Position numbers and translations under genes: made by a program
From: a virus
DNA length: 31,950 nucleotides
Virus record (IMG/VR): IMGVR_UViG_3300046000_007851
Location: 1-31,950 of that record
Direction: 5' to 3' (one strand)
The notes under the pieces: model-generated
Database searches by the model: none
Seen by the model: the letters and a program-made list of their open reading frames with translations, nothing else
Told to the model about the DNA's origin: nothing
In this document: piece after piece, positions 83 to 30,797 of the stretch
Numbering within the stretch: the first letter of the stretch is position 1
How the letters are laid out: each line of letters begins with the position of its first letter

Positions 83-3000
83 TTATTTTCTATTATCCAT
101 ATAAATAATCACTTCATTATAATACTCAATAAAGTGTTCATTCCACAAATCCCATTTAATATCAACTCCATCTACGGAGAAAACTTGTATGTTATCAAAT
201 TTGGGTAGGATGTTATCTCTAAACCATCTGAATTTACATTCGTGATAATTAGAATCATTTTTAAGATGAAATTCAGTCACAATTTTTGGAATTGATTTTA
301 AGAACTCAACATTACTTGGTTGGAATACGTCGTACTCACCACCTTCACAATCACATTTTAAAAAATCAATTTTATTAATTCTTTGGTTATCTAAGAACTC
401 CCTAAAACTAAATGTTGGAACAATCTCAGTCATTTCATCCCAAGAAATTTCAATTTTCTTTTTATCCGTAATTGCTCCTTGTATTATTTTAACATTTTCT
501 TGACCCACATTTCTTTTTAGAATTTCTATTTGGTGACTGATTGGTTCAACAACATAACATTGTTTTGGGTTTTTTGGTAATATCTTATATGTGAATGGTC
601 CTAAAGATGCTCCTAAATCCACAACAATATCCCCTTCCTCAACTTCAAAAAATCTTTCATAGGTGTTACCTTCGAATATTTCTTCTTCGGCTTGTTTAAC
701 GTACCATTCACTTCTTCCTCCCCAATCAAATGGTTTGTCTTCTATTTTTTCCATCGTTACTTCTTTATATATTATTTTATTTATTTCTTTTATAACCATA
801 TCGGTACTGATACGTTTTGTACACTCAAACATCCGATCGGTATTTTTATGTAGTGGACACCAATTCCAATCACTAGCATCTAATCTTTCTGAATTAAAAC
901 ATCCGTGACATACGTCTTCATTGATGACTCTATACGTATCCAATTTTGTTTCGGCCCATTTTTCACTGAACCCTGAGATTAAAATTACCGGTAGTTTACA
1001 CGCCCAGGCTAACCAACTTAATCCTGATCCAAGACCAATAAAGAATTCACATTCGGATAAGTCATTTATAACTTCTTGTAAATTACCTCCTTTGTAAATG
1101 GTCACACCTTTTGGGTAATTATTTTTCATATAACCATCACCTTCTTTTGAGTATATCATACACTCATAACCTAATGAGATGAGGTAATCAACTACTTTTT
1201 GCCAACCGTCAGGGTTATTCCAATACTTTGCTTGAGCAGTTGAGTGGAACCCAATACCAACTTTTTTCTTTTTAGTTAGGTTAGGTTGATTAAGTTTAGG
1301 TCTTATTTCGTTATACTCAAGACCTAAAATATCGGTTGCGGTTTTCTGTAGTGGTTGTTTTTTATAATCACTTGGTGTCATATTATAATTAACCGAACCA
1401 TCTTCATTGTAATACCAACCCAACCTATATTGTGACCTAATATTTTGAACAACATCACCTGGTTCAATAAATGTTATCTCAGGGTATTGATCAATAAATA
1501 AAAAGTTCATAAATGTTGAAACTATTAATTCGCAATTATGTTTTTTTCTGAACTCCTCAACATACGGGAACCAAGCTAATGTATCTCCTAATGATTTTGA
1601 CCCAAATGAAATATAGACTCTTTCTCCATTTAGATTTATTTTATTATTATAGATTAGTTCTCCGTTCTCCCAAACTTTGGTTTCCCAATCTGTATAATAT
1701 TCTCTATTTAATTTAACCCAACTATTAATTGGTAATGAATTTTGGTAGATTACATTTTCACCATCATACATTTTAATATCAAATTTATTGTTGCTTTGAC
1801 CTTTTATTTCAAAGAAAGGCTGACACACATAGTGTTGATTAAAAACATAATCATTTTTAATCGGGTCCTGTTGGGTGATATCTAAATTCTTTACTAACAT
1901 ATAATAACTTAATAGATCCTCACCAAAACTTTCATCATTTGGGATTTCATATGCGTTATCGTTATTAATTAAATTTATCAGTTGTTTTGAAATATTTTCC
2001 ACGTCACCTTCAATGGGCGTTATGTATTTATCAAACATCCCTGAATATTGTGGTAAGTTTCTTGTTAAGATTTTCATCCCGTAATTAATTGATTCCCTCA
2101 CCACCAATGGATTACATTCCCAAGTTGAGTTAAACATTAATACATCACAGGCTTGCATAAATTTATCTACATCATTTCTTTCTCCCCACACTTTCACATT
2201 AGATGGTAGGTCTTTCATAATTGGACCCCAATAATCCTCAAAGTTTGGGGCTTGGTTCCCTATAAAGTGGAATTGGATATCAGGGTTAGATTCTACCAAA
2301 GTCCTTGCGACTTCAACACCTTCTCCTTGATTTTTACCACTAGTCCATAGACCAACATTTAATACGTGAGTCTTCATTAAGTCTAACCCTAACTCTTCTC
2401 TAACTTTCATTTTTTGGATAAGTGGAACTTCATTAAACTCACCATAGATTTCATTTTCCTCCAAAATAGGTTTTATTTTATTTTCGTAAGGGTATAACGA
2501 TAAGAATTTCATTGGTGTCTCATCCTTAAATGTATTTTCCATATGATATGGAGTTACCAATGAATATGATTCAGGTTGTAATTTTTTATTTGTTTTTGGG
2601 TCGTACCATATATTATGACACGTCTCAACAATTCTCCAAGTCCTATCGTTGGAGTAAATTTGATTTAATAAATCTACGGGGATTTTGTTAAATGATTCAA
2701 AACCATCCAACATTTCTTCAGAGTGGACTATATCAATATTGTTGTTTTTAATAATATCAATTAATTCGTATTTTCTATTAACCTCATCCGTTCCTCCTAA
2801 TGTGAAAAAATGATCCTCACCTAATAGTTTAATGATTTCATTTCTTTGAACCACATATGTTGAACTAAACTGAGAGTATTCAACTAAGAATATTTCAATC
2901 TGATCTTTATATTCTTGTAGTGATTGAATTCGTTTTAATGCGAATTGAGGTGCACCTCCTGTTGATAGGTGGGGAGTAACGTATAGTAATTTAATTTTTG

Positions 3001-3658
3001 AGTTTTTCATAATAAAAGAGGTTATACTTTTTTTCCATTCGTGGTCATTTTCTTTTTCATATATCTTAACACTTTTAATGTTGTCTTGAATGTATTTGTT
3101 TTCATCTTGAGTTAGATATTCACTACTATAAGGTTTGTTTTGTAAATAATGTAGGGTGGTATTACTTTTGTCTAAGTTATTTTCCATTGGTCTACCATAT
3201 AACATTTTATTTGGTTCACATAATGATGTATGTAAATCCTCAATTACATAGATACCGTCATCCTTTAATAACGGAAATAGACAACCAAAAGTTAATTGTT
3301 GATCTGAAATATGGTGACTACCATCATCAATAATAATATCAAAAGTTATGTTAATATTTTTTTCAAATTCTTTTAAATCTTCTTTTTTGGATTGGTTTAG
3401 TACAACACATTTAACTCTTTCGTTGGTAAACTCAGATTTATCGTTAATGTCCGCACCATATATTGTAGCATTGGGAAAGTAATCATACCACATTTTTAAT
3501 GATGATCCATTATTAACACCAATTTCTAATATGTTTATCTTCTTATCTTTAAATCTTCTAAAGTATTTTTCGTAAGTTTCGGTAAAGTTATGTTTATCAC
3601 CATGTTCAGTCCCTTTATCTGAACCATATCTATTTGCGAGTATTGTTAGTTCTTTCAT
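83..3658 (-). CDS. Four-domain methyltransferase-glycosyltransferase-heptosyltransferase-methyltransferase
   Basis: This 1191-residue protein strings together four enzyme-like modules. Residues 1-215 are a class I SAM methyltransferase of the CmcI/macrocin-methyltransferase type (LEIGVNNGSS at 44-53, IIDDGSHH at 109-116). Residues about 220-600 are a GT-B, GT4-like glycosyltransferase (VTPHLSTGGAP near 217-227, VGLWTSGKNQG at 425-435, the donor-site stretch ECNPLVVRESINYG at 514-527). Residues about 605-965 resemble the TibC/Aah autotransporter heptosyltransferases, with SLGDTLAWFPYVEEF at 689-703, GLGSGLSWLAWA at 875-886, and a Cys set C917, C920, C934, C946 like the iron-binding Cys motif of that family. 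Residues about 985-1185 are an FkbM-type methyltransferase (VVDLGASLGPFTY at 1012-1024, FLKCDCEGGEYDVF at 1099-1112). Its ATG overlaps the upstream stop as ATGA, so translation is probably coupled. Likely role: building and methyl-capping a glycan, possibly on virion protein. The domain calls are firm; the substrate is unknown. Confidence 0.85.
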   Translation of the reverse strand: MKELTILANRYGSDKGTEHGDKHNFTETYEKYFRRFKDKKINILEIGVNNGSSLKMWYDYFPNATIYGADINDKSEFTNERVKCVVLNQSKKEDLKEFEKNINITFDIIIDDGSHHISDQQLTFGCLFPLLKDDGIYVIEDLHTSLCEPNKMLYGRPMENNLDKSNTTLHYLQNKPYSSEYLTQDENKYIQDNIKSVKIYEKENDHEWKKSITSFIMKNSKIKLLYVTPHLSTGGAPQFALKRIQSLQEYKDQIEIFLVEYSQFSSTYVVQRNEIIKLLGEDHFFTLGGTDEVNRKYELIDIIKNNNIDIVHSEEMLDGFESFNKIPVDLLNQIYSNDRTWRIVETCHNIWYDPKTNKKLQPESYSLVTPYHMENTFKDETPMKFLSLYPYENKIKPILEENEIYGEFNEVPLIQKMKVREELGLDLMKTHVLNVGLWTSGKNQGEGVEVARTLVESNPDIQFHFIGNQAPNFEDYWGPIMKDLPSNVKVWGERNDVDKFMQACDVLMFNSTWECNPLVVRESINYGMKILTRNLPQYSGMFDKYITPIEGDVENISKQLINLINNDNAYEIPNDESFGEDLLSYYMLVKNLDITQQDPIKNDYVFNQHYVCQPFFEIKGQSNNKFDIKMYDGENVIYQNSLPINSWVKLNREYYTDWETKVWENGELIYNNKINLNGERVYISFGSKSLGDTLAWFPYVEEFRKKHNCELIVSTFMNFLFIDQYPEITFIEPGDVVQNIRSQYRLGWYYNEDGSVNYNMTPSDYKKQPLQKTATDILGLEYNEIRPKLNQPNLTKKKKVGIGFHSTAQAKYWNNPDGWQKVVDYLISLGYECMIYSKEGDGYMKNNYPKGVTIYKGGNLQEVINDLSECEFFIGLGSGLSWLAWACKLPVILISGFSEKWAETKLDTYRVINEDVCHGCFNSERLDASDWNWCPLHKNTDRMFECTKRISTDMVIKEINKIIYKEVTMEKIEDKPFDWGGRSEWYVKQAEEEIFEGNTYERFFEVEEGDIVVDLGASLGPFTYKILPKNPKQCYVVEPISHQIEILKRNVGQENVKIIQGAITDKKKIEISWDEMTEIVPTFSFREFLDNQRINKIDFLKCDCEGGEYDVFQPSNVEFLKSIPKIVTEFHLKNDSNYHECKFRWFRDNILPKFDNIQVFSVDGVDIKWDLWNEHFIEYYNEVIIYMDNRK

Positions 3659-4611
3659 AATAATTTTATTTCAATAACATTATGCGTAATGTCTTTTATT
3701 TTTTCGGTTATATCTGATTCTATTCCATTATAAGATATTGATACGTTTTTTATGTTGGTCGGTTTAAATCCTAAATTAATGATGTCCCTATTTGATATAT
3801 CATAATAAGTTCCAATACCGTCCACCGTAATTAGTACGTTTATTTTTTCATCATTATCGTAAAAATATAAACATACGTCATCGTTAAGTATAACATCTTT
3901 TGTAATAAAAAAAATCAAACCGTCGATATCGGAATAATTAAATAATTTTTCATCTTTATGGAACAAAATTAAATCATCAACTTTTTCGGATTCAATCTTA
4001 TAATTTAGATCACCATTAATTAATGTATCGTAAAGCCAGTTCTCAACAATACAATTAAATTTACGATAACTCTCTAATGTGATATATTGTGAAAAATTTA
4101 ATAAGTTTTCTTTATCTAACGCAATTAAATGTAGGCTAACTTTATGTTCGTGAAATGGAAAGAAGTTACATTTTTTTTCGGATAAGAAAGTTGTTTTTAC
4201 CTTATCATCTATTACGGTATCATATACGATATGATAATACCTTTCGTAATCATATGTTAAAGCATATTCGGATAACTTTTTTGTTTGATAAAGTGCTGCC
4301 CATCCATAGTCAATTACCGATCTTTTAACCACAATTTCTCTATCCTTACCCACATATTTCGCCCAAGACATAACAGATTTTTCGGGCCAATAAAGTAGTG
4401 GGTTTTCTTTTGTTTGTATGTAAAAATCACACATATCGATAACCTCAGACGGTAATGGTATCGGACTATTTAACATCACATCCAAATTTAATTCCTTAAT
4501 GGTTTTGATATTATTAATTAAGATGTTAATTTTTTCTTCAGTGTCACAATAAGAACTTATCATTACAATTCTTTTACCTTGCAAAATATCCTCATTGACT
4601 ATCATTCCCAT
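3655..4611 (-). CDS. Unknown protein coupled to the multidomain glycosyltransferase (glycosyltransferase-like?)
   Basis: This 318-residue protein is not confidently recognised. The N-terminus (GKRIVMISSYCDTEEK at 12-27) followed by alternating strands and helices up to YYHIVYDTVIDD resembles the Rossmann-like half of a GT-A glycosyltransferase: a strand, a numbered-contact style helix, then an aromatic-rich acidic stretch. No clean DXD motif is visible. The C-terminal third is beta-rich and acidic and could be a binding domain. The stop overlaps the next start by four bases (ATGA, 3655-3658), which ties it functionally to the sugar enzyme that follows. AAGG lies two bases before the ATG at 4611; a second Met at codon 3 is an alternative start. 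Confidence 0.6.
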   Translation of the reverse strand: MGMIVNEDILQGKRIVMISSYCDTEEKINILINNIKTIKELNLDVMLNSPIPLPSEVIDMCDFYIQTKENPLLYWPEKSVMSWAKYVGKDREIVVKRSVIDYGWAALYQTKKLSEYALTYDYERYYHIVYDTVIDDKVKTTFLSEKKCNFFPFHEHKVSLHLIALDKENLLNFSQYITLESYRKFNCIVENWLYDTLINGDLNYKIESEKVDDLILFHKDEKLFNYSDIDGLIFFITKDVILNDDVCLYFYDNDEKINVLITVDGIGTYYDISNRDIINLGFKPTNIKNVSISYNGIESDITEKIKDITHNVIEIKLL

Positions 4612-4669: not shown

Positions 4670-5629
4670 ATGCCAAATAGTATTAAATATAATGTGAGTG
4701 CCGAAACATTGGCACTTAAAAAAGGTAATTTTTGGATTGGTACCGGCGACGTAGGTAAAGGTCCGACAAGTACTACAGGTTATTGGAATGGTATAACCCC
4801 CCCCGCTGGTGGTTATACAATATACCTAAATAAGGCATCCAATGGTCCATCAATATATGTCGCATCAAACGACGCTGAATTAATTTCACGAACAAACCAA
4901 ATTGCTGGTACATCATATACCACCGCAAACGAATGTTTTAATTATTATGCGAGTCAATCGGATAAAATGGTTTTTAATAGGGATTACGATTCAATAATAA
5001 CAAATGGTTTGGTATTGAATTTAGATGCCGGATTTATCCCATCCTACCCAACAAACGGCACCACTTGGTATGATTTATCTTATGGTGTGAATAATGGAGT
5101 GTTAACAAACGGACCAACCTTTAATAGTTCAAATGGTGGTAGTATTGTCTTTGATGGTGTTAATGATTGTATTGTAGTTAATTCTAATGCGAATATATTA
5201 TCTAAAACAAGTTACACCAAAATTTCATGGTTTTATATTACAAGTTATCTTTATAATATTATTAGTGGTGGTAATAGTGGACAACATGCATTTTGGTTAG
5301 AGGGGACAAATAAACTACGTGCTGGTCATAATGGTCAATGGAGTACAGTTGTTAGTACTACCAGTTTATCTTTAAATACTTGGTATTTTGGTGCGGTTAC
5401 ATTTAATACAAGTACGGGATGGGTATTATATGTTAATGGTGTCCAAGAAGCGACATCTTCTAGTACCGCAACATACACAGGTGCTGATGAAATATTAATA
5501 GGTGCTTATGGTACTGGGTCTAATGTTTTTGCAGGTAGAATTGCGGTAGCGCAAGTTTATAATCGAGTATTATCCGCGTCAGAAATACTCCAAAACTATA
5601 ACGCAACCAAAGCAAGATTTGGATTATAA
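4670..5629 (+). CDS. LamG/concanavalin-like virion display protein
   Basis: This 319-residue protein has a small N-terminal region (1-100) with Gly/Thr-rich turns, then a LamG-type beta-sandwich from about residue 107 to the end. The diagnostic stretch is TNGLVLNLDAG at 111-121, then TWYDLS, the VFDGVNDCIVV strand, a LWYF/GAVTFN-type strand and the closing IAVAQVYNRVLSASEI helix. LamG sandwiches bind carbohydrates or serve as virion knobs; in tailed phages they usually sit on tail fibres or decoration proteins. No signal peptide or membrane segment is visible. It is the first gene of the plus-strand run and precedes glycosyltransferase genes. A role in surface binding or display is inferred; its place in the particle is not shown by the sequence. 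Confidence 0.75.
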   Translation: MPNSIKYNVSAETLALKKGNFWIGTGDVGKGPTSTTGYWNGITPPAGGYTIYLNKASNGPSIYVASNDAELISRTNQIAGTSYTTANECFNYYASQSDKMVFNRDYDSIITNGLVLNLDAGFIPSYPTNGTTWYDLSYGVNNGVLTNGPTFNSSNGGSIVFDGVNDCIVVNSNANILSKTSYTKISWFYITSYLYNIISGGNSGQHAFWLEGTNKLRAGHNGQWSTVVSTTSLSLNTWYFGAVTFNTSTGWVLYVNGVQEATSSSTATYTGADEILIGAYGTGSNVFAGRIAVAQVYNRVLSASEILQNYNATKARFGL

Positions 5630-5632
5630 TAA

Positions 5633-5639
5633 TATTTAT
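5633..5639 (+). promoter_or_regulatory. TATTTAT box touching the 5644 start
   Basis: AATATTTATTAATATGG: only four bases separate the box from the ATG. The same arrangement occurs before the HAD gene at 29289. If this is a promoter -10 element, the transcript would be leaderless. Confidence 0.4.
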
Positions 5640-5643
5640 TAAT

Positions 5644-5922
5644 ATGGAAACGCAAGTACAAGAATATGATAACAGAGAATTTATGATTTTTAATGTGAGT
5701 GAATTAAACGAAATAGATTTCACTCAAGTTTTAGAAACATCTGAGGACACCGTTAGAAAATCGGTAGACCAAACAAAAACATTTGTTAAATGGGATGGTG
5801 TAATTCCGGAATGTGTTAGTAATCTAAATACAAAGGAAGGACCTTACACGTATGAGGAAATTTTAACAATTTTATCAACACCAGAATGGACGGACCCAAA
5901 TCCACCAATGATAATGACATAA
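5644..5922 (+). CDS. Small acidic protein of unknown function
   Basis: A 92-residue acidic soluble protein without recognisable motif, signal peptide or membrane segment. It contains a FVKWDGVIPECV stretch and a Pro/Asp-rich C-terminus. It lies 14 bases after the LamG gene and 38 bases before a GT9-like gene, in the same orientation, and has the TATTTAT box at its start, so it is likely a real gene. It could be a chaperone or a small structural partner of the LamG protein; the sequence does not decide this. Confidence 0.6.
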   Translation: METQVQEYDNREFMIFNVSELNEIDFTQVLETSEDTVRKSVDQTKTFVKWDGVIPECVSNLNTKEGPYTYEEILTILSTPEWTDPNPPMIMT

Positions 5923-5924
5923 CT

Positions 5925-5931
5925 TATTTAT
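5925..5931 (+). promoter_or_regulatory. TATTTAT box upstream of the GT9-like gene
   Basis: TTATTTATTTTTAT, 29 bases before the ATG at 5961, with a second AT-rich stretch (CTTTATAATTAAG) nearer the start. Confidence 0.35.
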
Positions 5932-5960
5932 TTTTATCTCATAGTCTTTATAATTAAGAT

Positions 5961-6890
5961 ATGAAAAAAGTATGTTTGGATGTTTCAGGATCAAGGGCGT
6001 TAGGCGATACCATAGCGGTAACCCCTACTCTAAGGAAACTTTACCATTCATACAATCAAAAAATTTCAATTATTACTCACCATCCACACCTGTTTTCAAA
6101 TAACCCATATGTTGATGTTATCCATAGTGAATTAACAGATGAGATTAAAAACGAATGTGAGGTTTTTAATTCGTTCAATATTGGATATCACCCAAATGGT
6201 GTTTGTTATAAACACAACGCAATGGATATAAGACAATTCCACGCAATTAATCTTGGTTTTATGTTAACCAAAGATGAAATGGAATTGGATTACATTCCTG
6301 ACGAATACGAACCTATTGAAGGTCTGCCTGAAAAATACGTTTTAATACACCCCGTTCAAAATTGGAACTCAAGAACGTGGGGTGCAAAAAAATGGCAACT
6401 ACTTACAAAACTTTTAAACCAAAAAGGAATTGCGGTTGTATCGGTAGGAAAAGATTCTTCAGAACTTGGTGGATCTAATGTGGATAAACCAGTATTCAAC
6501 TTCCCAATAGAATTAGGTATGAACCTAATGAACCAAACAAGTTTATCTCAAACTTGGCACCTCATCAATAAATCTATGTGTTTCATCACAATGGACTCAG
6601 GTTTATTACATTTAGCAGGAACAACAGACATTGACATCATTCAATTGGGTAGTTCAATAAACCCTGAGTTTAGATCACCATTTAGAAAAGGATCTCAAGA
6701 ATATAAGTACCACTACGTAAGAGGCGGTTGTGGATTGAATTGTGCGTCTGATATGAAATATGGTGTAAGAGAATGGCAATCAATTCAAGGAATACCATCG
6801 TTAGTTAATTGTCTTGAGAGAAAGGAAACTTTTGAATGTCACCCAAACCCTCTAATAGTTTACAATAAGGTATTGGAGTTTGTTAGTTAA
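5961..6890 (+). CDS. GT9-like (ADP-heptose:LPS heptosyltransferase-type) glycosyltransferase
   Basis: This 309-residue GT-B protein has the GT9 hallmarks: SGSRALGDTIAVTPTLRKLY at 9-28 (the GD-x-(I/V)-xxTP acceptor-side loop), the first strand of the donor domain at VLIHPVQNWNSRTW (127-140), and TMDSGLLHLAG at 210-220, equivalent to the D-S/T-G-x-x-H-x-A-A nucleotide-sugar site. GT9 enzymes transfer heptose or related sugars. Four Cys (257, 261, 284, 293) lie in the C-terminal part, reminiscent of the Cys cluster in the TibC-like domain at 83-3658, so it may be a single-domain relative of that module. It stands between two small display-type genes. The host-LPS or virion-protein acceptor is unknown. 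Confidence 0.85.
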   Translation: MKKVCLDVSGSRALGDTIAVTPTLRKLYHSYNQKISIITHHPHLFSNNPYVDVIHSELTDEIKNECEVFNSFNIGYHPNGVCYKHNAMDIRQFHAINLGFMLTKDEMELDYIPDEYEPIEGLPEKYVLIHPVQNWNSRTWGAKKWQLLTKLLNQKGIAVVSVGKDSSELGGSNVDKPVFNFPIELGMNLMNQTSLSQTWHLINKSMCFITMDSGLLHLAGTTDIDIIQLGSSINPEFRSPFRKGSQEYKYHYVRGGCGLNCASDMKYGVREWQSIQGIPSLVNCLERKETFECHPNPLIVYNKVLEFVS

Positions 6891-6912
6891 TAACCATAAA
6901 GTCAAAACAAAG

Positions 6913-6919
6913 TATTTAT
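6913..6919 (+). promoter_or_regulatory. TATTTAT box before the 6938 gene
   Basis: AAAGTATTTATTAAGAAAG, 18 bases before the ATG; nearly identical in flanks to the box at 4649 (AAAGTATTTATAAAATAAAG). Confidence 0.5.
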
Positions 6920-6937
6920 TAAGAAAGAATTTAATAA

Positions 6938-7240
6938 ATGCCAAACATAGTTCAGATAAATGGAATAACAGGTACATCACCATATGATATATATGTTTGT
7001 GATATAACATTGAATTATTGTTTTTCCGCATTCACCGCAACAACAATAACACCACCCTTCCAATTTCCTGTGCCACCACCATTAGATAATACCACCGAAA
7101 TTATTTTAAAGATAGTAGATTCGTTGGGTTGTGAGAAATTTATTTTATTAACTTGTGGTGTTTTATATGGTAAACAATTCGAGGACTTTGAGGTATTCTT
7201 ATTCCAAGATTCGGATATTTATCTATTTGAGGGGCCTTAA
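6938..7240 (+). CDS. Small beta-rich putative virion protein
   Basis: A 100-residue protein beginning MPNIVQINGITG, with two Cys pairs, a Thr/Pro-rich middle (TATTITPPFQFPVPPP) and an acidic aromatic tail. The composition (Thr, Pro, Cys, hydrophobic strands, no charged helices) matches the other display-type proteins of this region. It has no recognised domain. It is preceded by a TATTTAT box and followed after 37 bases by a glycosyltransferase gene. A small decoration or fibre-associated protein is the likeliest reading, by context only. Confidence 0.6.
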   Translation: MPNIVQINGITGTSPYDIYVCDITLNYCFSAFTATTITPPFQFPVPPPLDNTTEIILKIVDSLGCEKFILLTCGVLYGKQFEDFEVFLFQDSDIYLFEGP

Positions 7241-7277
7241 TAATTTACAACTGATTTCCTTTTAATATTTTTAAGAT

Positions 7278-8522
7278 ATGAAAATATTTGTACAGATAGC
7301 ATCGTATCGCGACCCACAACTTATTCCAACAATTAAATCAATGTTGGAAAATGCGAAAAAACCAAAAAATCTTAGAATTGGTATTGCAAGACAATTTCAT
7401 CCTGAGGATGGCTTTGATGATTTAACCGAGTATGAAAAGGACGATCGTTTTCGTATTTTAAATATTGATTACACAGAGTCAAAAGGAGTTTGTTGGGCAA
7501 GACACCAAGTACAACAATTATATAAAGGTGAGGAGTATACCCTTCAGATTGATTCTCATATGAGATTTGAGAAGGATTGGGACGACACGCTTATCAAGAT
7601 GATTAAACAACTCCAAAAGAAAGGACATAAAAAACCATTGTTAACAGGTTATGTTTCATCTTTTAATCCTGAGAATGATCCTGAAGGTAGAACACAAGAA
7701 CCCTGGAGAATGGCTTTTGATAGATTTACACCCGAAGGTGTTGTATTCTTTTTACCTGAAACAATACCAGGATGGAAGGAACTTAAAGAACCTGTTACAG
7801 CTAGATTTTATTCAGCTCACTTCTGCTTTACGTTAGGTCAATTCTCAACAGAGGTCCAACACGACCCTGAGTTTTATTTTCACGGAGAAGAAATCTCAAT
7901 CACCGTAAGGGCTTACACTCACGGATATGATTTATTCCACCCACATAAAACCGTTATTTGGCATGAATACACTCGTAAAGGTAGAACAAAACAATGGGAT
8001 GATGATAAAGATTGGTATAAAAGAAATACCGCTTGTCACATTAAAAATAGACAACTTTTAGGTATTGATGGTGAAAACTATTCTGGTAACACATCAGAAT
8101 GGTTTGGTACCGAAAGAACAATCCAAGACTATGAAAAATATGCAGGTCTTTTATTCGAAACAAGAGGAGTACAGCAAGAAACAATTGACAAGACATACCC
8201 ACCAAACACGTATGATTATAAAAATATTAAGGAATGGAAAAAATCTTTCTCTAGCATTTTTAAACATTGTATTGATTTAAGTTTAAGTCAAGTACCTGAA
8301 ACTGATTATGATTTTTGGGTGGTTGCATTCCACGATAAAGATCACAACACATTGTTTAGGCAAGACGCTGACGCTAACGAAATAGTTAGAATAAAATCAG
8401 ATCCTGACGGATATGGGAAGGTATGGAGAGAATTCCACACAACTCAACGTCCGGCTTATTGGGTAGTTTGGCCTCACTCATTATCTAAAGATTGGTGTGA
8501 AAGAATTGTGGGTAATTTATGA
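7278..8522 (+). CDS. GlcNAc-transferase family (GT60/Skp1-GnT1-like) glycosyltransferase
   Basis: This 414-residue GT-A enzyme belongs to the GlcNAc family (Pfam PF11397), whose characterised members transfer alpha-GlcNAc to Thr or hydroxyproline of proteins. Seen in the sequence: the family N-terminus IFVQIASYRDPQLIPTI at 3-19, GVCWARHQVQQLY at 70-82 (donor-binding helix), the DXD-equivalent QIDSHMRF at 90-97, FYSAHFCFTLG at 177-187, the acceptor/metal region FHGEEISITVRAYTHGYDLFHP at 201-222, and VIWHEY at 226-231. Residues about 330-414 form an extra C-terminal part. The leader is AATATTTTTAAGATATG, a variant of the TATTTAT box. It opens a plus-strand run of sugar and methyl transfer genes. 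Family assignment is confident; the protein-Thr acceptor is inference. Confidence 0.85.
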   Translation: MKIFVQIASYRDPQLIPTIKSMLENAKKPKNLRIGIARQFHPEDGFDDLTEYEKDDRFRILNIDYTESKGVCWARHQVQQLYKGEEYTLQIDSHMRFEKDWDDTLIKMIKQLQKKGHKKPLLTGYVSSFNPENDPEGRTQEPWRMAFDRFTPEGVVFFLPETIPGWKELKEPVTARFYSAHFCFTLGQFSTEVQHDPEFYFHGEEISITVRAYTHGYDLFHPHKTVIWHEYTRKGRTKQWDDDKDWYKRNTACHIKNRQLLGIDGENYSGNTSEWFGTERTIQDYEKYAGLLFETRGVQQETIDKTYPPNTYDYKNIKEWKKSFSSIFKHCIDLSLSQVPETDYDFWVVAFHDKDHNTLFRQDADANEIVRIKSDPDGYGKVWREFHTTQRPAYWVVWPHSLSKDWCERIVGNL

Positions 8523-8562
8523 TATTAATATCTCATAAAGGAATATTCAAAATACTTTCACA

Positions 8563-9399
8563 ATGATTGAGGTTACATATCAAAAACCTAATGGGTCGAC
8601 TTGGTCGGTTACTAATATGTATGATAAATTTTTCAATTATTTATCTGAAAATTATGAGTGTATCCATAACCCCCCAACTTGCGTTGGTTATGGATCACCT
8701 AATTCTCCACATCATATGACCATAAAAAATCTTTCTAACAACAAGTATTTTGTTGTTTCATATTGGGATTATACGGGGGATATTTATAACCCTAAATATG
8801 GTTGGGATGTAGATAATATGATGGGTTTATTTACATCAAGTGGAGTTCATTATGATTTCAAGTTTACCCCATTTTCATATATGACGTATTCCACAGAATT
8901 TGAGAGTTATTCCAAAAACATTGTACCGTTTGATAAAAAACCAAATAATGAATTATTTTTTAGGGGATATCTACACGGGATGAGAAGAAAATTACATTTA
9001 TTAAATGAGATCCCAATGAGTGAGGAAAGAATAGAACCTTTTGATTATTTTAAAGAATTAACAAATAATAAAATATGTTTGTCACTTAACGGTGTTGGTG
9101 AAATATGTTTTAGAGATATAGAAATTTTATCTTCAGGATCTGTTTTATTGAGACCATTATTAAAACAAAAATTACATAACGAATTAATACCAAACGTTCA
9201 TTACATACCTTTTGAAGAAAGTTTTGACCCCGCTGAACAAATGGAGATAATAAAAGAAAAATATAATGAAATAAAAGATAATGATGATCTATTAAGAGAG
9301 GTTTCTAAGAATGGATATCAATGGTATAGGGAAAATGGGACACCTCAATCTAATGTTGATATTTTAAAAAACATACTTAATATTGATTTAATAATGTAA
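8563..9399 (+). CDS. Putative glycosyltransferase (GT90/exostosin-like GT-B half)
   Basis: This 278-residue protein has the layout of CAP10/GT90 or exostosin-type enzymes: ELFFRGYLHGMRRKLH at 130-145, then KICLSLNGVGEICFRDIEIL at 170-189 followed by SSGSVLLRP, which corresponds to the donor-binding loop where such enzymes carry a G-x-x-C-x-R-x-x-E pattern. A helix with EIIKEKYNEIKDNDDLLREVSKNG follows, like the C-terminal helices of GT-B enzymes. The N-terminal 110 residues are aromatic-rich and unusual. It follows the GT60-like gene by 40 bases and precedes the next by 10, with no TATTTAT box, so it is internal to the operon. The class is moderately certain, the sugar unknown. Confidence 0.65.
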   Translation: MIEVTYQKPNGSTWSVTNMYDKFFNYLSENYECIHNPPTCVGYGSPNSPHHMTIKNLSNNKYFVVSYWDYTGDIYNPKYGWDVDNMMGLFTSSGVHYDFKFTPFSYMTYSTEFESYSKNIVPFDKKPNNELFFRGYLHGMRRKLHLLNEIPMSEERIEPFDYFKELTNNKICLSLNGVGEICFRDIEILSSGSVLLRPLLKQKLHNELIPNVHYIPFEESFDPAEQMEIIKEKYNEIKDNDDLLREVSKNGYQWYRENGTPQSNVDILKNILNIDLIM

Positions 9400-9409
9400 A
9401 AAAATAAAT

Positions 9410-9781
9410 ATGGAATACCCAATAAGTGAAATTTTAGATAGATACTCAATTGCAGTTTTAAAAAAACAAAGATTAGATGCTGATAATGATATTGAATTAA
9501 ATGATTTATCGGAAGTAATTGAGGAATATAAAAAAATTAATTCTCAAATTATCGAAACTTATATTGATAAATTGGTTTCTATTAATGGTGATATATGGGA
9601 TTTAGAATCTGACATTAGAAAAGGTAAAGAAGGTGAGTTAGGGTTAGAGGAAGTTGGTAGACGAGCAATAAGAATTAGAGAATTTAACAAAATTAGAGTT
9701 GGTTATAAAAATATAATTGTAGAAACTTTTGGTGAAGGATATAAAGATGTTAAAATGAATCATGCAAGTTCTGACGAATAA
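9410..9781 (+). CDS. Small helical DUF6165-like protein of glycan loci
   Basis: This 123-residue all-helical protein looks like the DUF6165 type often found next to glycosyltransferases: an N-terminal ISEILDRYSIAVLKKQRL segment, a central DIWDLESDIRKGKEGE stretch, then the conserved-style REFNKIRVGYKNII helix ending with GEGYKDVK. The role of that family is not established. Its 3' end overlaps the next start by 20 bases (9762-9781), pointing to coupled translation with the GT2-type enzyme. No transmembrane or signal sequence is visible. The family match is from memory of motif layout and is moderate. Confidence 0.6.
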   Translation: MEYPISEILDRYSIAVLKKQRLDADNDIELNDLSEVIEEYKKINSQIIETYIDKLVSINGDIWDLESDIRKGKEGELGLEEVGRRAIRIREFNKIRVGYKNIIVETFGEGYKDVKMNHASSDE

Positions 9782-10589
9782 GATAGTAATTTCCCTAACA
9801 ACGGTTCCCGAAAGATTGTCGTATGATGTTGAGGACGGTTTTAAATCGGTACTAAAATCTATTTGTAATCAGAATTACGATAACTATGAAGTACATCTAA
9901 ATTTACCTGAAATATATAAAGTAACTGGCGAACATTACATTATACCTGAATGGTTAGATGAATTACAAAAAGAACACCCACATTTAAAAATTTATCGTGT
10001 TGAGGATATGGGTCCTCCGACTAAAGTTATACCAACAATATTGAGAGAGTCTGATGAAACACTCCTAATTGTTGTTGATGATGATTTAATTTATCACGAA
10101 GATATGATCTTAGAACACATTAAATACCATATGGAATTACCTAATTCTGTTATCCTATATGATGGTAGAAGTTTAATGGGGTCAAAATATGGTGATTTAA
10201 GAGATTCTTGGGTTATATGTGTGACAAAACCAACAAGAATAAGAGGGATGTTGCAACATTATAAATCTGTTTCCTACCACAAAAAATATTTCCAAGAAGA
10301 TTTCTTTCAAGATTTTTTAGGTAAAACAAAGTCTGACGACATTTTGATGACATATTATTTTTTACATAAAAAAATAAAAATGTATGTGGTTCCTTACGAA
10401 AAAGATGTGGAAAAAATCCAAACCTATGATGAATGGTATAATTTTCAAGGAGTTACAACTTTTCCTGTTTTAAGACACTCAAATAGTTTAGGAAACACAG
10501 GTTGTAATCACCCAAAAATTTTAGAATTAGAAACAAAATTTTTTATACCGGATGAGTTTAAACGAATAGATACCGAAATAATTGATTGA
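9762..10589 (+). CDS. GT-A (family 2-like) glycosyltransferase
   Basis: This 275-residue protein begins VISLTTVPERL (9-19), typical of a GT-A nucleotide-sugar fold. VHLNLPE and YIIPEWLDEL follow, then DMGPPTKVIPTI at 82-93, and the metal-binding LIVVDDDLIYHED at 102-114 with D106-D107-D108 as the DXD motif. The C-terminal part DFLGKTKSDDILMTYYFLHKK carries a likely catalytic Asp pair. It overlaps the preceding helper gene and is followed after one base by an FkbM methyltransferase, so it belongs to the glycan operon. The transferred sugar is unknown. Confidence 0.8.
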   Translation: MQVLTNKIVISLTTVPERLSYDVEDGFKSVLKSICNQNYDNYEVHLNLPEIYKVTGEHYIIPEWLDELQKEHPHLKIYRVEDMGPPTKVIPTILRESDETLLIVVDDDLIYHEDMILEHIKYHMELPNSVILYDGRSLMGSKYGDLRDSWVICVTKPTRIRGMLQHYKSVSYHKKYFQEDFFQDFLGKTKSDDILMTYYFLHKKIKMYVVPYEKDVEKIQTYDEWYNFQGVTTFPVLRHSNSLGNTGCNHPKILELETKFFIPDEFKRIDTEIID

Positions 10590-10590
10590 T

Positions 10591-11280
10591 ATGGAATACT
10601 TTAATGAAATTAAAAAATGGGATGATTTACATTGTGAAAAACACGTAATGAATTTGGTAAATAATATAACCGAATTGTTAGAAAATAGGGGTATCAGTGA
10701 ACTTTATTATATTGATATTGGTGCTAATGTTGGAAAAGTTTATGATTTACTAAAAGAAAGAAATAATTTAAAGAAGGTTTGGATGTATGAGGCGAGCCCA
10801 ATGTTATTTGATTATTTAAAAATTAAATACGAAAAAGACGATAACGTAGTTTTATCTCACGGAGCAATTTCAAATACAGAAGGGACTGTACCATTTGATG
10901 AAACATCAATGTTATATCAAATAAAAAACAACGTCGAAGAGTTTAATTTTGGATTATCCAAAATCGGTAACTCACCAAATCAATTAGAAATTAACTCAAA
11001 CAAAATTTCTAACCTTATAGGGAATAACGAAGAGATATTTAACAACGTATCTTTTATTAAAATTGACACAGAGAATGTTGATTTTTTTATTTTAGATGAC
11101 TTAATCTCAGTTGTTGAAAAATTTAAAACAAAACCGATCATTGAGTTTGAGGTTAACTACAAATCAAGTACAATCACTAATGAAATGGCTCAAGATATAT
11201 TGAATAAATACGTGTTGGTTGGGTATAAACCTTTACGATTAGAGGACTGCTGGGGTGACGGAATATTAATACCAAACTAA
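10591..11280 (+). CDS. FkbM-family SAM methyltransferase
   Basis: A methyltransferase of 229 residues from the ATG at 10591; an upstream in-frame TTG at 10582 would add three residues but overlaps the previous stop. Motif I is YYIDIGANVGKVYDLL, the adenosine loop is VWMYEASPMLFDYL, and VSFIKIDTENVDFFIL corresponds to the FkbM D-x-E-G/N signature. FkbM enzymes O-methylate sugars or polyketides; here a methyl cap on a glycan fits the neighbours. It has no membrane segment. It lies 1 base after a GT and 4 bases before another methyltransferase. Confidence 0.8.
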   Translation: MEYFNEIKKWDDLHCEKHVMNLVNNITELLENRGISELYYIDIGANVGKVYDLLKERNNLKKVWMYEASPMLFDYLKIKYEKDDNVVLSHGAISNTEGTVPFDETSMLYQIKNNVEEFNFGLSKIGNSPNQLEINSNKISNLIGNNEEIFNNVSFIKIDTENVDFFILDDLISVVEKFKTKPIIEFEVNYKSSTITNEMAQDILNKYVLVGYKPLRLEDCWGDGILIPN

Positions 11281-11284
11281 TATT

Positions 11285-11968
11285 ATGAATGAAATTTTAA
11301 AAATTGCGGAAGAATTTAACAAAATACCAAAAAAGTATTGGGATAGTATAACATTAACAGGACATCAACACGATTTTGAGAGAAGTAAACCAGGTCCCTA
11401 CCTAAAAACTGCCGCCGAAATTGCTCGGGTTCTGAATATGAAGACGGTTGTTGAGATAGGATCAACAAGATTTGCGTTATCTCAAAAATGTTTAGATTAT
11501 TATAATGGTAATATGGATCCTTTTGTGTCCCCTCCGTGTTGTGCCGATGGTCACGGTGGTATAATTTGGTCATTAGAGGGGTTTGAAGTTTATTCGTGCG
11601 ATATAGACCCTAATTGTAAAACTCAGGCTGAGTGGTCATTTGGTAACATTAGAATACCGTTTCCTAACAATTTACACCTTCACATACCTGAAGATGGTAT
11701 TGAGTTTTTAAGTAACTTTGATAAAACAATTGATGTTTTATTTTTAGATGGTTGGGATACAGGTACCTATGAATATAGAGAAAAACATCTCGAGTCTTTT
11801 ATTACCGCTAAAGATAAATTAGCTGACGTTCATTTAATTCTAATTGACGATACCGACTTCAATATCGAAGGGGAGGGTAAAGATGCGTTTTTATCCCCAC
11901 ATTTATTAGAGTTAGGTTATTACTTGTTATTTGATGGGAGACAAAAATTATATATAAACAAAATTTAA
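11285..11968 (+). CDS. Class I methyltransferase-like protein
   Basis: This 227-residue protein has a Rossmann methyltransferase layout: VVEIGSTRFALSQKCL (motif I without the usual GxGxG), FEVYSCDIDPNC (acidic residue for the ribose), then IDVLFLDGWD and HLILIDDTD as later strands. The DGWD/DDTD acids resemble CmcI-type or metal-dependent methyltransferases. A Cys/His-rich insert (SPPCCADGHGG) after motif I is odd and could bind metal. It sits 4 bases after the FkbM gene and 8 bases before the HtrL-type glycosyltransferase. The degenerate SAM loop leaves activity uncertain. Confidence 0.7.
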   Translation: MNEILKIAEEFNKIPKKYWDSITLTGHQHDFERSKPGPYLKTAAEIARVLNMKTVVEIGSTRFALSQKCLDYYNGNMDPFVSPPCCADGHGGIIWSLEGFEVYSCDIDPNCKTQAEWSFGNIRIPFPNNLHLHIPEDGIEFLSNFDKTIDVLFLDGWDTGTYEYREKHLESFITAKDKLADVHLILIDDTDFNIEGEGKDAFLSPHLLELGYYLLFDGRQKLYINKI

Positions 11969-11976
11969 TATTAACT

Positions 11977-13656
11977 ATGAGTGATCATAAAATTACATTA
12001 GTCACCGGTTTATGGGACATAGGTAGAGGAGACCTTACTGAGGGTTGGTCTAGATCATTCGATCATTATTTAAATAAATTTAGTCAACTTCTTGAGGTTG
12101 ATTGTAATATGATAATATTTGGTGATCGTGAACTAGAGTTATTTGTAAAAGAAAGAAGGAGTAATGATAAAACTCAATTTATTTTAAGAGATTTAGAATG
12201 GTTTAAAAGTAATGAGTTTTACGGTCAGATACAACAAATAAGAAATAACCCAAAATGGTTTAATCTTGCTGGTTGGTTAAAGGACTCCACTCAAGCAAGG
12301 TTAGAGATGTATAACCCATTAGTTATGTCAAAAATGTATTTGTTACACGACGCATTACTTATGGATAAATTTGATTCTGATAAATTATATTGGATTGACG
12401 CTGGATTATCAAATACGGTAAATATGGGTTACTTCACTCACGATAATGTTCTTGATAAGATAGACAAGTTGTTTGATAATTTCACATTTGTTTGTTTTCC
12501 ATACCATGCCGATCGAGAAATACACGGGTTTGATATTGATAAGATGACTCAAATAACAAATGTTAGGGTAGATAAAGTTGCTCGTGGAGGTTTTTTTGGT
12601 GGAACAAAAGAATCTATTAGACAAATTAACACATTGTACTACGACTTAATGAAAACAACATTAAGTAAGGGTTTAATGGGAACAGAAGAAAGTTTATTTT
12701 CAATATTACTATATAATAATCCAACCTTAACTGAGTATGTTGAGATTAATCAAGATGGGTTAATGTATAGGTTTTTTGAGGATGTTAAGAACGACTCCGC
12801 CCAAGTTAAAACAATGTCTAACGGTAAAAAAGTTGAGGTTAAAACAAATGGTGAGGTTGGTCTATACGTTATTACATACAATAGTCCAAAACAATTTGAG
12901 ACATTAATTAATTCTATGATGGATTATGATATGGATTTTATTGTTAAAACAAAAAAGTTTTTACTAAATAACTCAACGGACTTATCCACAACACCGGAAT
13001 ACGAAAGATTATGTAACCAATATGGTTTTGAGCACATCAAAAAAGATAATATTGGTATCACAGGTGGTAGAGTTTTTATTGCGGAACACTTTGATAAAAC
13101 GGAAATGGATTATTACATATTTTTTGAGGATGATATGTTTTTCTATAATGGTGTGGATCAAACTTGTAAAAATGGATTTAACCGAAATACAAAAAAATTA
13201 TTTAAGAAAGTCCTACAAATTATAAGAAAAGAACAATTTGATTATCTTAAATTAAATTTTACAGAATTTTATGGTAGTCACGAAAAACAATGGTCTTGGT
13301 ATAATGTTGACCAAGAGTTTAGGAAGAATCACTGGCCGTTTAATCAAAATTTAGCCCATCACGGGGAAAGCCCAAATGTCCCAAATTTAGAATTTAAACA
13401 TATAAAATCACACGAAGGTGTTCCATACGCAACGGGTGAGGTATATTTATCTAATTGGCCAATCATTTTGTCTCGTGAAGGTAATTATAAATGTTATATC
13501 GAAACTAAATTTGATTATCCTTATGAGCAAACATTGATGTCTCATTGTTATAAACAAATGGTTAATGGTAGGGTTAGTGCTGGTGTTTTATTGATGACAC
13601 CGACGGAACATAATAGATTTGATTTCTATGAGGGAAGTTCAAGAAAAGAATTCTAA
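11977..13656 (+). CDS. HtrL/YibB-type plus GT-A two-domain glycosyltransferase
   Basis: A fusion of 559 residues. Residues 1-270 match the HtrL/YibB family (PF09612): ITLVTGLWDIGRGDL at 6-20, the NP-x-VMSKMYLLHDAL helix at 113-127, YWIDAGLSN at 138-146 (catalytic-type D-x-G), and RGGFFGGTKESI at 203-214. Residues about 295-555 form a second GT-A domain starting VGLYVITYNSPKQFETLINSM, with GITGGRVFIAEHF and the metal-binding FFEDDM (382-387). Both halves look intact. It closes the operon begun at 7278 and is followed by the paralogous Thr/Ser/Pro-linker proteins. It probably adds one or two sugars to a shared acceptor. Confidence 0.75.
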   Translation: MSDHKITLVTGLWDIGRGDLTEGWSRSFDHYLNKFSQLLEVDCNMIIFGDRELELFVKERRSNDKTQFILRDLEWFKSNEFYGQIQQIRNNPKWFNLAGWLKDSTQARLEMYNPLVMSKMYLLHDALLMDKFDSDKLYWIDAGLSNTVNMGYFTHDNVLDKIDKLFDNFTFVCFPYHADREIHGFDIDKMTQITNVRVDKVARGGFFGGTKESIRQINTLYYDLMKTTLSKGLMGTEESLFSILLYNNPTLTEYVEINQDGLMYRFFEDVKNDSAQVKTMSNGKKVEVKTNGEVGLYVITYNSPKQFETLINSMMDYDMDFIVKTKKFLLNNSTDLSTTPEYERLCNQYGFEHIKKDNIGITGGRVFIAEHFDKTEMDYYIFFEDDMFFYNGVDQTCKNGFNRNTKKLFKKVLQIIRKEQFDYLKLNFTEFYGSHEKQWSWYNVDQEFRKNHWPFNQNLAHHGESPNVPNLEFKHIKSHEGVPYATGEVYLSNWPIILSREGNYKCYIETKFDYPYEQTLMSHCYKQMVNGRVSAGVLLMTPTEHNRFDFYEGSSRKEF

Positions 13657-13662
13657 TCGTAG

Positions 13663-13669
13663 TATTTAT
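13663..13669 (+). promoter_or_regulatory. TATTTAT box before the Thr-linker display gene
   Basis: GTAGTATTTATTGATAAAAGG, 14 bases before the ATG at 13684; an AAAGG stretch lies between box and start and could serve as a weak ribosome-binding site. Confidence 0.55.
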
Positions 13670-13683
13670 TGATAAAAGGTTAA

Positions 13684-14700
13684 ATGGAATTTTTTATCAA
13701 GAAAAACGCAACACTTCCAACACTAAAAATAAATGTAATCAAAGACGGAAGAAGTGATTACGATAGATCTATGCAGTTTTTATCTGAGACTGACATATTT
13801 TTTTCTATGGTAAATACGGAGAACGACATTCCAAAAATAACATCAAGACCGGCTGGTTTAATGGCAAAGCCACAATTAGATATAAGTGATACTACAGAAT
13901 ATTACGTTTACTATCAATTCACACCTTTTGATACAAGACAAGTTGGTAGATACAAAGGTCAGTTTTTATTTAGAAATAATACAGGAGTTTTAGTTCTCCC
14001 ACTAAATGAAGATATATATATTAATGTTACGGATAGTTTTATTATTGACGATATGGAATATGCAAGTTGTTATGTAATTGATTATCCGTGTTGTTTTGGG
14101 TCAGGTGGGATAAATCCAGGTCCAGGTCCATCACCAACAACAACTTCAACAACTAACATACCAACAACCACAACTAGCACTACAGGTCCGACAACAACTA
14201 GCACAACAATACCACAACCAATAGGTTACACCGAATGGGTTCTTAGTACAGGTGTTGCCGATTATGAGGATGCTTGTGCGAAAACTGATGAGTGGAAAAC
14301 GGCGTACACACCTGAACTTAATTACCTACCAATAGGTCAAACATTATACTCAAGTCCTGAATTTACGACCACCGCTTTCAGTATTAATCACGGGTTCTTT
14401 AAGATTATGTTAAGAAATGGTGTCCCATATGATCCAAGTACAATAATATGTGTTGGACCGTATAATTTTTATACAAATAATTATTGTCAAGTAATAAATA
14501 GTTATGAGTGCGGTACCCCAATACCTTGTAATAGTATGACATTTACTAAAACTGAAGATGTACCATACTCGTTTGTAATTTACAATTGTGAGGGCCGTTA
14601 TAGTGGGGTGACACTTAATTATAATCAAAGTACTACTTTATGCGTTTCAACGTATGTTCCACAACCATACATAACTAAAACTGATAATGGTTCTTGTTAA
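13684..14700 (+). CDS. Modular display protein with TTTSTT linker (paralogue A)
   Basis: This 338-residue protein has three parts. Residues 1-137 are a conserved beta domain (NATLPTLKINVI, FFSMVNTENDIPKI, EYYVYYQFTP, GRYKGQFLF, GVLVLPLNEDIYINV) shared with the next gene. Residues about 144-180 are a Gly/Pro then Thr/Ser-rich linker. Residues 181-338 are a Cys-containing domain unlike that of the paralogue, ending in Cys. The shared N-terminal part is probably the particle attachment or oligomerisation module, the rest a variable exposed module. The Thr/Ser stretch is a plausible O-glycosylation target for the enzymes just upstream. No known family is recognised; structural role by composition and position. 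Confidence 0.7.
   Translation: MEFFIKKNATLPTLKINVIKDGRSDYDRSMQFLSETDIFFSMVNTENDIPKITSRPAGLMAKPQLDISDTTEYYVYYQFTPFDTRQVGRYKGQFLFRNNTGVLVLPLNEDIYINVTDSFIIDDMEYASCYVIDYPCCFGSGGINPGPGPSPTTTSTTNIPTTTTSTTGPTTTSTTIPQPIGYTEWVLSTGVADYEDACAKTDEWKTAYTPELNYLPIGQTLYSSPEFTTTAFSINHGFFKIMLRNGVPYDPSTIICVGPYNFYTNNYCQVINSYECGTPIPCNSMTFTKTEDVPYSFVIYNCEGRYSGVTLNYNQSTTLCVSTYVPQPYITKTDNGSC
14113..14223 (+). repeat. Thr/Ser-rich low-complexity linker coding repeat
   Basis: Imperfect ACA/ACT/AGC codon repeats encode runs such as PTTTSTT and TTTTSTTGP (residues 144-180 of paralogue A). The arrangement suggests slippage-prone growth of the linker. Confidence 0.8.
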
Positions 14701-14721
14701 TACCAACTTTCAGTTTCCTTA

Positions 14722-14728
14722 TATTTAT
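14722..14728 (+). promoter_or_regulatory. TATTTAT box before paralogue B
   Basis: TTATATTTATAGATAAAAG, 14 bases before the ATG at 14743: the same distance and nearly the same downstream sequence (GATAAAAG) as the box of paralogue A. Confidence 0.55.
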
Positions 14729-14742
14729 AGATAAAAGAATAG

Positions 14743-15585
14743 ATGGATTTTACTATCGCACAGAACGCAACACTTCCTTTATTAAAAATGCAAATTGTGA
14801 ATGAAGGGATACAGGACTACAACTCAATGATGAAGTTCATTGAAACGTCTAGTATCTTTTTTTCGATGGTAAATACAGAAACTGGAATTCCAAAGATCAA
14901 TACGAAGTCCGCAGGGTTTGTGGAGAAATTAGAAATGGATCCTAACGCAAGTCCCGAATATTACGTGTACTACAGATTCAATGGTTTAGACACAAGTAAA
15001 CCTGGTAGATACGAAGGTCAATTTTTATTTATTAATGAGACGGGAACATTGGTTTTACCAATTAGGGAACCTCTTTTTATTAATATTGTTGAGAGTTACA
15101 TTGCCGATGACTTACCTTATAATCCTTGTTATGTTTTGGAATATAATTGTTGTACAACTCCATTCCCTTCTCCAACACCAACGTCAACACCTGATCCGGT
15201 AATTAGTCCGACACCATCACCATCGTCAACATCAACACCAACTCCTACCCCAACTCCGACTCAAACGCCAAACCAACCTATTTGTATTCACCCAAGATAC
15301 GAACAATTAATTTATAGTACGGTTGAGCAAGGTAACTTTAGTCAGAATTTAGAACTTGCGTGTTATGTTTTAGAATGTTTAAGAAATACAGATTGTACTT
15401 ACAATGGTTATTACGACAGATACTTTAATGTGAACGGACCAACCGTAGGGTCGTTAGCGTTCGAAAATGAAACAACTTGTTATCCAACTAACGACACAGG
15501 GTATTTTATAATGTGGACAGAAGGATCATTTAACCTAATTCAATTCACAAACGGGGTTTTACAAAATTCCGCATCCCTATGTTGA
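14743..15585 (+). CDS. Modular display protein with PTPT linker (paralogue B)
   Basis: This 280-residue paralogue of the preceding gene shares the 1-137 domain at high similarity (NATLPLLKMQIV, FFSMVNTETGIPKI, EYYVYYRF, GRYEGQFLF, GTLVLPIREPLFINI, then a CC pair). Its linker (about 138-178) is Pro-Thr/Ser-Pro rather than Thr-Thr-Ser. Its C-terminal domain (179-280) is unrelated in sequence to that of paralogue A, has several Cys and ends in Cys. The pattern is one conserved base with swapped linker and tip. It probably sits on the virion surface. The 83 bases after it hold a TATTTAT box and a mini-ORF before the polymerase. Confidence 0.7.
   Translation: MDFTIAQNATLPLLKMQIVNEGIQDYNSMMKFIETSSIFFSMVNTETGIPKINTKSAGFVEKLEMDPNASPEYYVYYRFNGLDTSKPGRYEGQFLFINETGTLVLPIREPLFINIVESYIADDLPYNPCYVLEYNCCTTPFPSPTPTSTPDPVISPTPSPSSTSTPTPTPTPTQTPNQPICIHPRYEQLIYSTVEQGNFSQNLELACYVLECLRNTDCTYNGYYDRYFNVNGPTVGSLAFENETTCYPTNDTGYFIMWTEGSFNLIQFTNGVLQNSASLC
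15154..15276 (+). repeat. Pro-Thr low-complexity linker coding repeat
   Basis: Imperfect CCA/ACA/ACT codon repeats encode PTPTSTP, SPTPSPSST and TPTPTPTPT blocks (residues 138-178 of paralogue B). Confidence 0.8.
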
Positions 15586-29266: not shown

Positions 29267-29277
29267 ATTTATGGTGA

Positions 29278-29284
29278 TATTTAT
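29278..29284 (+). promoter_or_regulatory. TATTTAT box touching the HAD gene start
   Basis: GATATTTATTAATATG, four bases before the ATG at 29289. It lies inside the extra codons of the alternative upstream start at 29271, which argues that 29289 is the true start. Confidence 0.45.
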
Positions 29285-29288
29285 TAAT

Positions 29289-30769: not shown

Positions 30770-30797
30770 TCCCATATATTTATATGTATGGGAATTT
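30766..30797 (+). promoter_or_regulatory. Hairpin sequestering the homing endonuclease start codon
   Basis: AAATTCCCATA (30766-30776) is perfectly complementary to TATGGGAATTT (30787-30797). U77-G86, A78-U85 and U79-A84 extend the stem to 14 bp with the tetraloop TTAT (30780-30783). The ATG (30788-30790) is in the 3' arm. A TATTTAT box (30777-30783) occupies the inner stem and loop. Read-through transcripts from the tube gene should therefore hide the start codon. Confidence 0.7.

Follow-up and report, generated by a model that had tools for sequence, protein, structure and literature searches.

Glycosylation of mycobacteriophage virions was reportedly described by Freeman et al. in 2023. In the mycobacteriophages Che8, Corndog and Myrna, phage-encoded glycosyltransferases modify virion proteins, namely the capsid and the tail tube, and the modification is reported to shield the particles from antibodies; the available parts of these accounts mention neither Thr/Pro linker proteins nor a variable cassette of enzymes (PMC12363180, PMC12619734). 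The 31,950-base stretch of DNA analysed here (IMG/VR record IMGVR_UViG_3300046000_007851; hereafter the window) is a complete virus record that represents a fragment of the larger genome of a large freshwater T4-like phage. Between a minus-strand unit and the PolB gene, it carries a plus-strand gene run (positions 4670-15585) in which genes for a GT60 enzyme, an HtrL_YibB-type enzyme and further glycosyltransferases stand among genes for display-type proteins with Thr/Ser/Pro-rich linkers. The run is probably a phage-encoded cytosolic O-glycosylation locus that acts on the phage's own structural proteins, in line with the sequence-only reading of this DNA, which had proposed sugar-coating of the phage's surface proteins. 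Unlike the mycobacteriophage system, it would use linker proteins as acceptors.

The predicted initiating enzyme is the GT60 polypeptide glycosyltransferase encoded at 7278-8522 (plus strand), which matches PF11397 (an N-acetylglucosamine (GlcNAc) transferase family) at 240 bits against a cut-off of 21; all cut-offs given here are curated family bit-score cut-offs. It shares this Pfam family with Trypanosoma cruzi OGNT1 and Dictyostelium Gnt1, and its nearest solved fold is that of the GT27 polypeptide N-acetylgalactosamine (GalNAc)-transferases, at ~12% sequence identity. Like these enzymes, which start O-glycan chains on protein that is Thr-rich or mucin-like, it may act on polypeptide; they differ in being eukaryotic and located in the Golgi or the cytoplasm, and the donor and acceptor of the phage GT60 are putative. 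A characterised T. cruzi GT60 forms GlcNAc-Thr in mucins (PMC9472816), an activity assayed on the peptide KPPTTTTTTTTKPP (PMC3769586).

A search of the GT60 sequence against the PDB returned nothing useful. With a structure model (predicted local distance difference test score, pLDDT, 87), all 50 of the matches listed by Foldseek belonged to the polypeptide GalNAc-transferase class. In a second-look comparison, the best 29 entries were polypeptide GalNAc-transferases (Z 21.5 to 18.1), and other GT-A enzymes began at Z 17.3. As judged by the model, GT60 is structurally closest to the mucin-type polypeptide GalNAc-transferases. A DSH motif (D92-S93-H94) is invariant across 47 GT60 sequences and is retained in the enzymes of Xanthomonas phage XacN1 and Stenotrophomonas phage RAS14; DSH is likewise the motif through which human GalNAc-T2 binds metal. 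A Dictyostelium-like hydroxyproline route, prompted by an oxygenase-like open reading frame (ORF) in XacN1, was dropped because PF13640 was found only in the GT60-less phage Mel-JY01.

The candidate acceptors are encoded at the end of the run. Display protein 1 (13684-14700, plus strand) consists of an immunoglobulin (Ig)-like N-terminal domain, a Thr-rich linker (residues 145-180) and a C-terminal domain. Its paralogue, display protein 2 (14743-15585, plus strand), is 48% identical across the N-terminal domain and has a Ser/Thr/Pro linker at residues 138-180, and the tail sheath (25867-29217, plus strand; phrog_23) has a Thr/Ser/Pro insert at about residues 288-334. The richest 20-residue segments of the three proteins contain 17, 19 and 14 Thr, Ser or Pro residues, respectively, against a mean of 10.2 and a maximum of 13 in pooled shuffles of the window proteome. 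Shuffling each protein's own residues matched the linker count in 0/2000, 0/2000 and 10/2000 cases, respectively, which confirmed the two display-protein linkers, and the similar one in the sheath, that the sequence-only reading had noticed. In all three proteins, the linker codons are a mixture of synonyms; hence the linkers are not DNA microsatellites, which points to selection on the protein.

The N-terminal display domain is modelled as an Ig-like fold (pLDDT ~87 over residues 1-120). Three phage baseplate entries top its second-look fold list (Z 8.0-7.9), tied with antibody domains, and proteins with a BppU domain were among its viral-library matches; by sequence, the BppU-type N-terminal domain was matched weakly and by a single member (E 0.077). 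A profile of the domain searched against PDB sequences gave nothing useful, and a tblastn search with display protein 1 found no match among phage records. From the modelled Ig fold, the display proteins are likely to be located on the virion. A further small display-type domain protein (6938-7240, plus strand) has no linker in the window, unlike most of its homologues. In relatives, its domain sits at the head of proteins of up to 3289 residues, mostly with (TP)n linkers, and such proteins are often encoded upstream of GT60. The sheath insert is common to the window and the records G001 and G004 and is absent from GT60-less orthologues, and it is a possible further acceptor.

In the proposed mechanism, GT60 would attach the first sugar to Thr or Ser in the Thr/Pro-rich linkers of the Ig-domain display proteins before assembly. 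By analogy with characterised GT60 enzymes, this sugar is probably an N-acetylhexosamine, and the tail sheath linker possibly receives it too. More sugars and methyl groups would then be added by the HtrL fusion and by the variable enzymes encoded between it and GT60, so as to extend and cap the glycan, and a minus-strand Aah/TibC fusion may add a heptose-like sugar, perhaps onto the same proteins. We infer the identity of the sugar and its attachment sites, as well as a benefit to the phage, which could be shielding or adhesion.

To the gene content, fold class and conserved catalytic motifs can be added the synteny of the locus and the co-distribution of enzyme and linkers. Relatives in viral contigs numbered 274 for GT60 and 226 for display protein 1. 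In the 69 distinct GT60 loci for which 8 kb or more of downstream sequence is available, HtrL lies downstream of GT60 on the same strand in every case, with 0-9 genes in between, and a display protein follows in 67, immediately so in 61. GT60 and the HtrL fusion are therefore fixed bookends around variable, largely sugar-related enzymes. The 211 distinct proteins encoded between the bookends form 52 clusters, with families that include glycosyltransferases, methyltransferases, UDP-GlcNAc epimerase, carbamoyltransferase, aminotransferase and acetyltransferase.

Such enzymes might instead alter the host envelope (lipopolysaccharide (LPS) or capsule) against superinfection, the linkers being flexible spacers only, which was the main alternative in the sequence-only reading. 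The GT9 and HtrL_YibB families are tied to enterobacterial LPS genes, and this counts for a role at the envelope. Thr/Pro linkers also occur without GT60, and glycosyltransferase clusters of jumbo cyanophages have been proposed to diversify the outer polysaccharide (PMC7824862). However, at the threshold applied, no hydrophobic segment was seen in any of the 211 cassette proteins, and a GtrA flippase was not found in 12 records by a search for which the control was positive. Moreover, GT60 resembles polypeptide GalNAc-transferases, and the linker proteins are its fixed neighbours, on bacterial chromosomes too. Because the cassette lacks predicted membrane segments and no GtrA-type flippase was found, modification of the host envelope is disfavoured and appears unlikely.

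Two cultured phages encode a locus of the same kind. The GT60 enzymes of XacN1 and RAS14 are 47% and 43% identical, respectively, to that of the window, and both phages have GT60, a carbamoyltransferase, another glycosyltransferase-like gene and HtrL (~40% identity), near PolB and close to a gene for a large Ser/Thr/Pro-linker protein. Unlike the window, they have no Aah/TibC domain, and their cassette, with its carbamoyltransferase, is a different one. At least two glycoproteins were reported in XacN1 with no enzyme assigned, and the available parts of that paper name ORF328 and ORF334 and give no account of linkers or of an HtrL partner (PMC5852040). In XacN1 (L192-L205), Thr/Pro tracts also occur in about 15 ORFs, some of which are neighbours in a run at record positions 124-133 kb.

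GT60 is also present in bacteria. In Bacteroidota contigs, one from Saprospiraceae and one from Bacteroidia, the GT60-HtrL pair and a gene for a Ser/Thr/Pro-repeat protein are divergently oriented. On our own reading of the sequences, these repeat proteins appear to begin with a signal-like region and to end in a sorting-type domain, and the Saprospiraceae contig seems chromosomal, since genes such as those for NAD kinase and UvrB lie nearby. Seven of 80 loci taken from bacterial genomes bear linkers, and in six of these seven a linker gene adjoins GT60, a count reached in 6/20,000 permutations, and tract density was 12 per 247 kb close to GT60 versus 5 per 504 kb farther off. This suggests a part for bacterial GT60 in adhesin O-glycosylation. 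On bacterial contigs L472, L494, L517 and L522, GT60 lies beside genes for Thr/Pro-repeat adhesin-like proteins.

The co-occurrence of linker proteins and glycosyltransferase genes in related genomes, which the sequence-only reading had named as a check, was assessed with one linker detector applied to the longest ORFs (XacN1 and RAS14 being read in part and LR756508 over 381 kb). Linker ORFs were present in all five GT60-positive phages (8, 7 and 10 in three IMG/VR phages, 15 in XacN1 and 5 in RAS14) and in none of the four GT60-negative phages Mel-JY01, LR756508, RaK2 and CBB. Thr/Pro linkers alone were also considered as a marker of GT60 phages, using 34 longer contigs located via a (TP)5 DNA pattern; they are not diagnostic, because linkers were also found without GT60.

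Sugar-coating of the phage's own linker proteins is thus supported by the GT60 fold, the HtrL/display synteny and the distribution of linkers, together with the XacN1 glycoproteins, the bacterial GT60 genes beside repeat proteins and the membrane-free cassette. Several points weigh on the other side. For this phage, the evidence comes from sequence, synteny and models. The modelled likeness of GT60 to polypeptide GalNAc-transferases is no proof of its substrate, and the Ig fold used to place the display proteins on the virion scores level with antibody domains. The sheath linker is absent from the GT60-positive G005, XacN1 and RAS14. The GT60-negative comparison is limited to four phages, two of them merely distant relatives, and 25 of the 34 (TP)5-bearing contigs, many of which are fragments, have no GT60, against nine that do. 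The 69 GT60 loci are mainly of one lineage, and hence their counts are not counts of independent events. On balance, we are evenly divided on whether the locus belongs to a counterpart of mucin-type O-glycosylation that is widespread in phages and bacteria, in which a cytosolic GT60, partly with HtrL, would act on Thr/Ser/Pro-repeat linkers, and in which an exchangeable sugar-extension cassette in large phages would lead related phages to display different virion glycans, as O-antigen loci do in bacteria.

The second bookend (11977-13656, plus strand) is an HtrL_YibB-type glycosyltransferase (PF09612, 67 bits against 24) with a weakly TAGT-like C-terminus. As it scored 79 bits against the NCBIfam equivalog TIGR02192, short of the cut-off of 265, it belongs to the HtrL_YibB family without being the same protein as that equivalog. 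Its C-terminus bears on a further possibility, that the locus glycosylates phage DNA, as phage glycosyltransferases often do on hydroxymethylated bases. Weak matches to TAGT and to beta-glucosyl-HMC-alpha-glucosyltransferase, and the adjoining DNA polymerase gene, point that way. However, the TAGT match (PF20691) reached 19.1 bits and missed the cut-off of 27.5, Tet/JBP was not found in 15 records by a search run without a positive control, and the fold class of GT60 and its association with linkers indicate protein as the substrate. Genes of the thymidylate synthase family are not diagnostic, because they are present both with and without GT60. Overall, a DNA substrate is very improbable.

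The minus-strand unit encodes a 1191-residue fusion (83-3658) of a MycE/TylE-like sugar O-methyltransferase, a GT4 domain, an Aah/TibC domain (residues 626-962) and an FkbM domain. Against the PDB, the fusion matched TibC (4rap/4rb4, E 1e-63) and the sugar O-methyltransferases 8ia9/3ssm. The TibC/Aah-like module of the sequence-only reading is a genuine domain, since it scored 281.5 bits against TIGR04414 and passed the equivalog cut-off of 200. Like the TibC/Aah heptosyltransferases, it retains the catalytic D110, T226, K230 and W305 and the iron-finger cysteines C339, C342, C358 and C370 (functional residues from PMC4358343). Unlike them, it is part of a large multi-enzyme fusion, the sugar-binding R286 is replaced by V/T in all 21 phage sequences, P300 is changed to G/S, and the classical target repeats (TIGR04415) did not exceed the cut-off in any of 16 records, several of which are fragments. 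Because R286 is changed to V/T, the donor may differ from that of TibC, as may the acceptor. The adjacent 318-residue protein (3655-4611, minus strand) had no match in family searches, is possibly another glycosyltransferase as far as its sequence indicates, and has counterparts encoded close to the island of several relatives.

The locus could comprise two systems, with the GT60-HtrL island acting on linkers and the Aah/TibC fusion acting on a different virion or host surface protein. The opposite strand of the fusion, the replaced R286, the missing target repeats and the absence of the Aah/TibC domain from four GT60-positive phages (XacN1, RAS14, G005 and G007) speak for this division. Conversely, the fusion adjoins the island in many relatives, the domain is over the cut-off in 10 of 13 IMG/VR records, and the fusion has the same kind of sugar methyltransferases as the island. 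We give the division somewhat less than an even chance; it is compatible with the role proposed for GT60.

The remaining genes of the run, like all ORFs listed in the sequence-only reading, are present at the positions given there, and all those described here are on the plus strand. A LamG (concanavalin-like lectin) display protein (4670-5629; PF13385, 71 bits against 28; phrog_8510, virion structural protein) is followed by a small protein with homologues in several relatives (5644-5922) and a GT9 glycosyltransferase (5961-6890; PF01075, 50 bits against 22). The GT9, GT60 and HtrL labels thus all exceed their cut-offs. Within the cassette, the GT90 label of the glycosyltransferase-like protein at 8563-9399 is weak (PF05686, 15.7 bits against 24), and the GT2-like enzyme at 9762-10589 is borderline (PF00535, 23.1 bits against 23.3). 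Between them lies an ORF for a 123-residue protein (9410-9781). Of the two methyltransferases, FkbM at 10582-11280 stands (PF05050, 32 bits against 23), and the second, at 11285-11968, is weak (PF13578, 18.1 bits against 26.3).

T4-type genes in the window encode PolB, a gp14-like neck protein, an SNF2 helicase, the sheath and the tail tube. Flanked by the genes for the neck protein and the helicase, 19973-22177 (minus strand) encodes a 734-residue protein with a complete iron/manganese superoxide dismutase at residues 166-354, preceded by a stretch in which a protease-like HExxH motif occurs; many relatives have homologues of varied length there. Between the sheath and the tail tube is a putative HAD-phosphatase-like ORF (29271-30116, plus strand), and directly past the tail tube gene is a zinc-finger, apparently homing-endonuclease-like ORF (30788-31681, plus strand).

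The window phage is probably of the same lineage as the moraphages, or of a neighbouring one. These too are large, come from fresh water, carry structural genes of T4 type and are predicted to have Bacteroidota hosts; they have four core glycosyltransferase orthogroups, with virion glycosylation raised as one possibility, and the parts of their description covered here include no GT60/HtrL island and no linkers as acceptors (PMC12619734). As far as these sources extend, phage virion glycosylation was already known, and the GT60-HtrL bookends, the variable cassette and the linker acceptors are new here. If the proposal is correct, a mucin-like system dedicated to coating, for which an initiator and acceptor sites can be predicted and whose capping enzymes are swappable, would be present in a large group of freshwater phages as well as in two or more cultured ones. 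This would provide a concrete mechanism for the XacN1 glycoproteins and extend phage virion glycosylation beyond mycobacteriophages, and it would suggest that, in bacteria, secreted proteins with Thr/Pro repeats are glycosylated by GT60 enzymes before they are exported.

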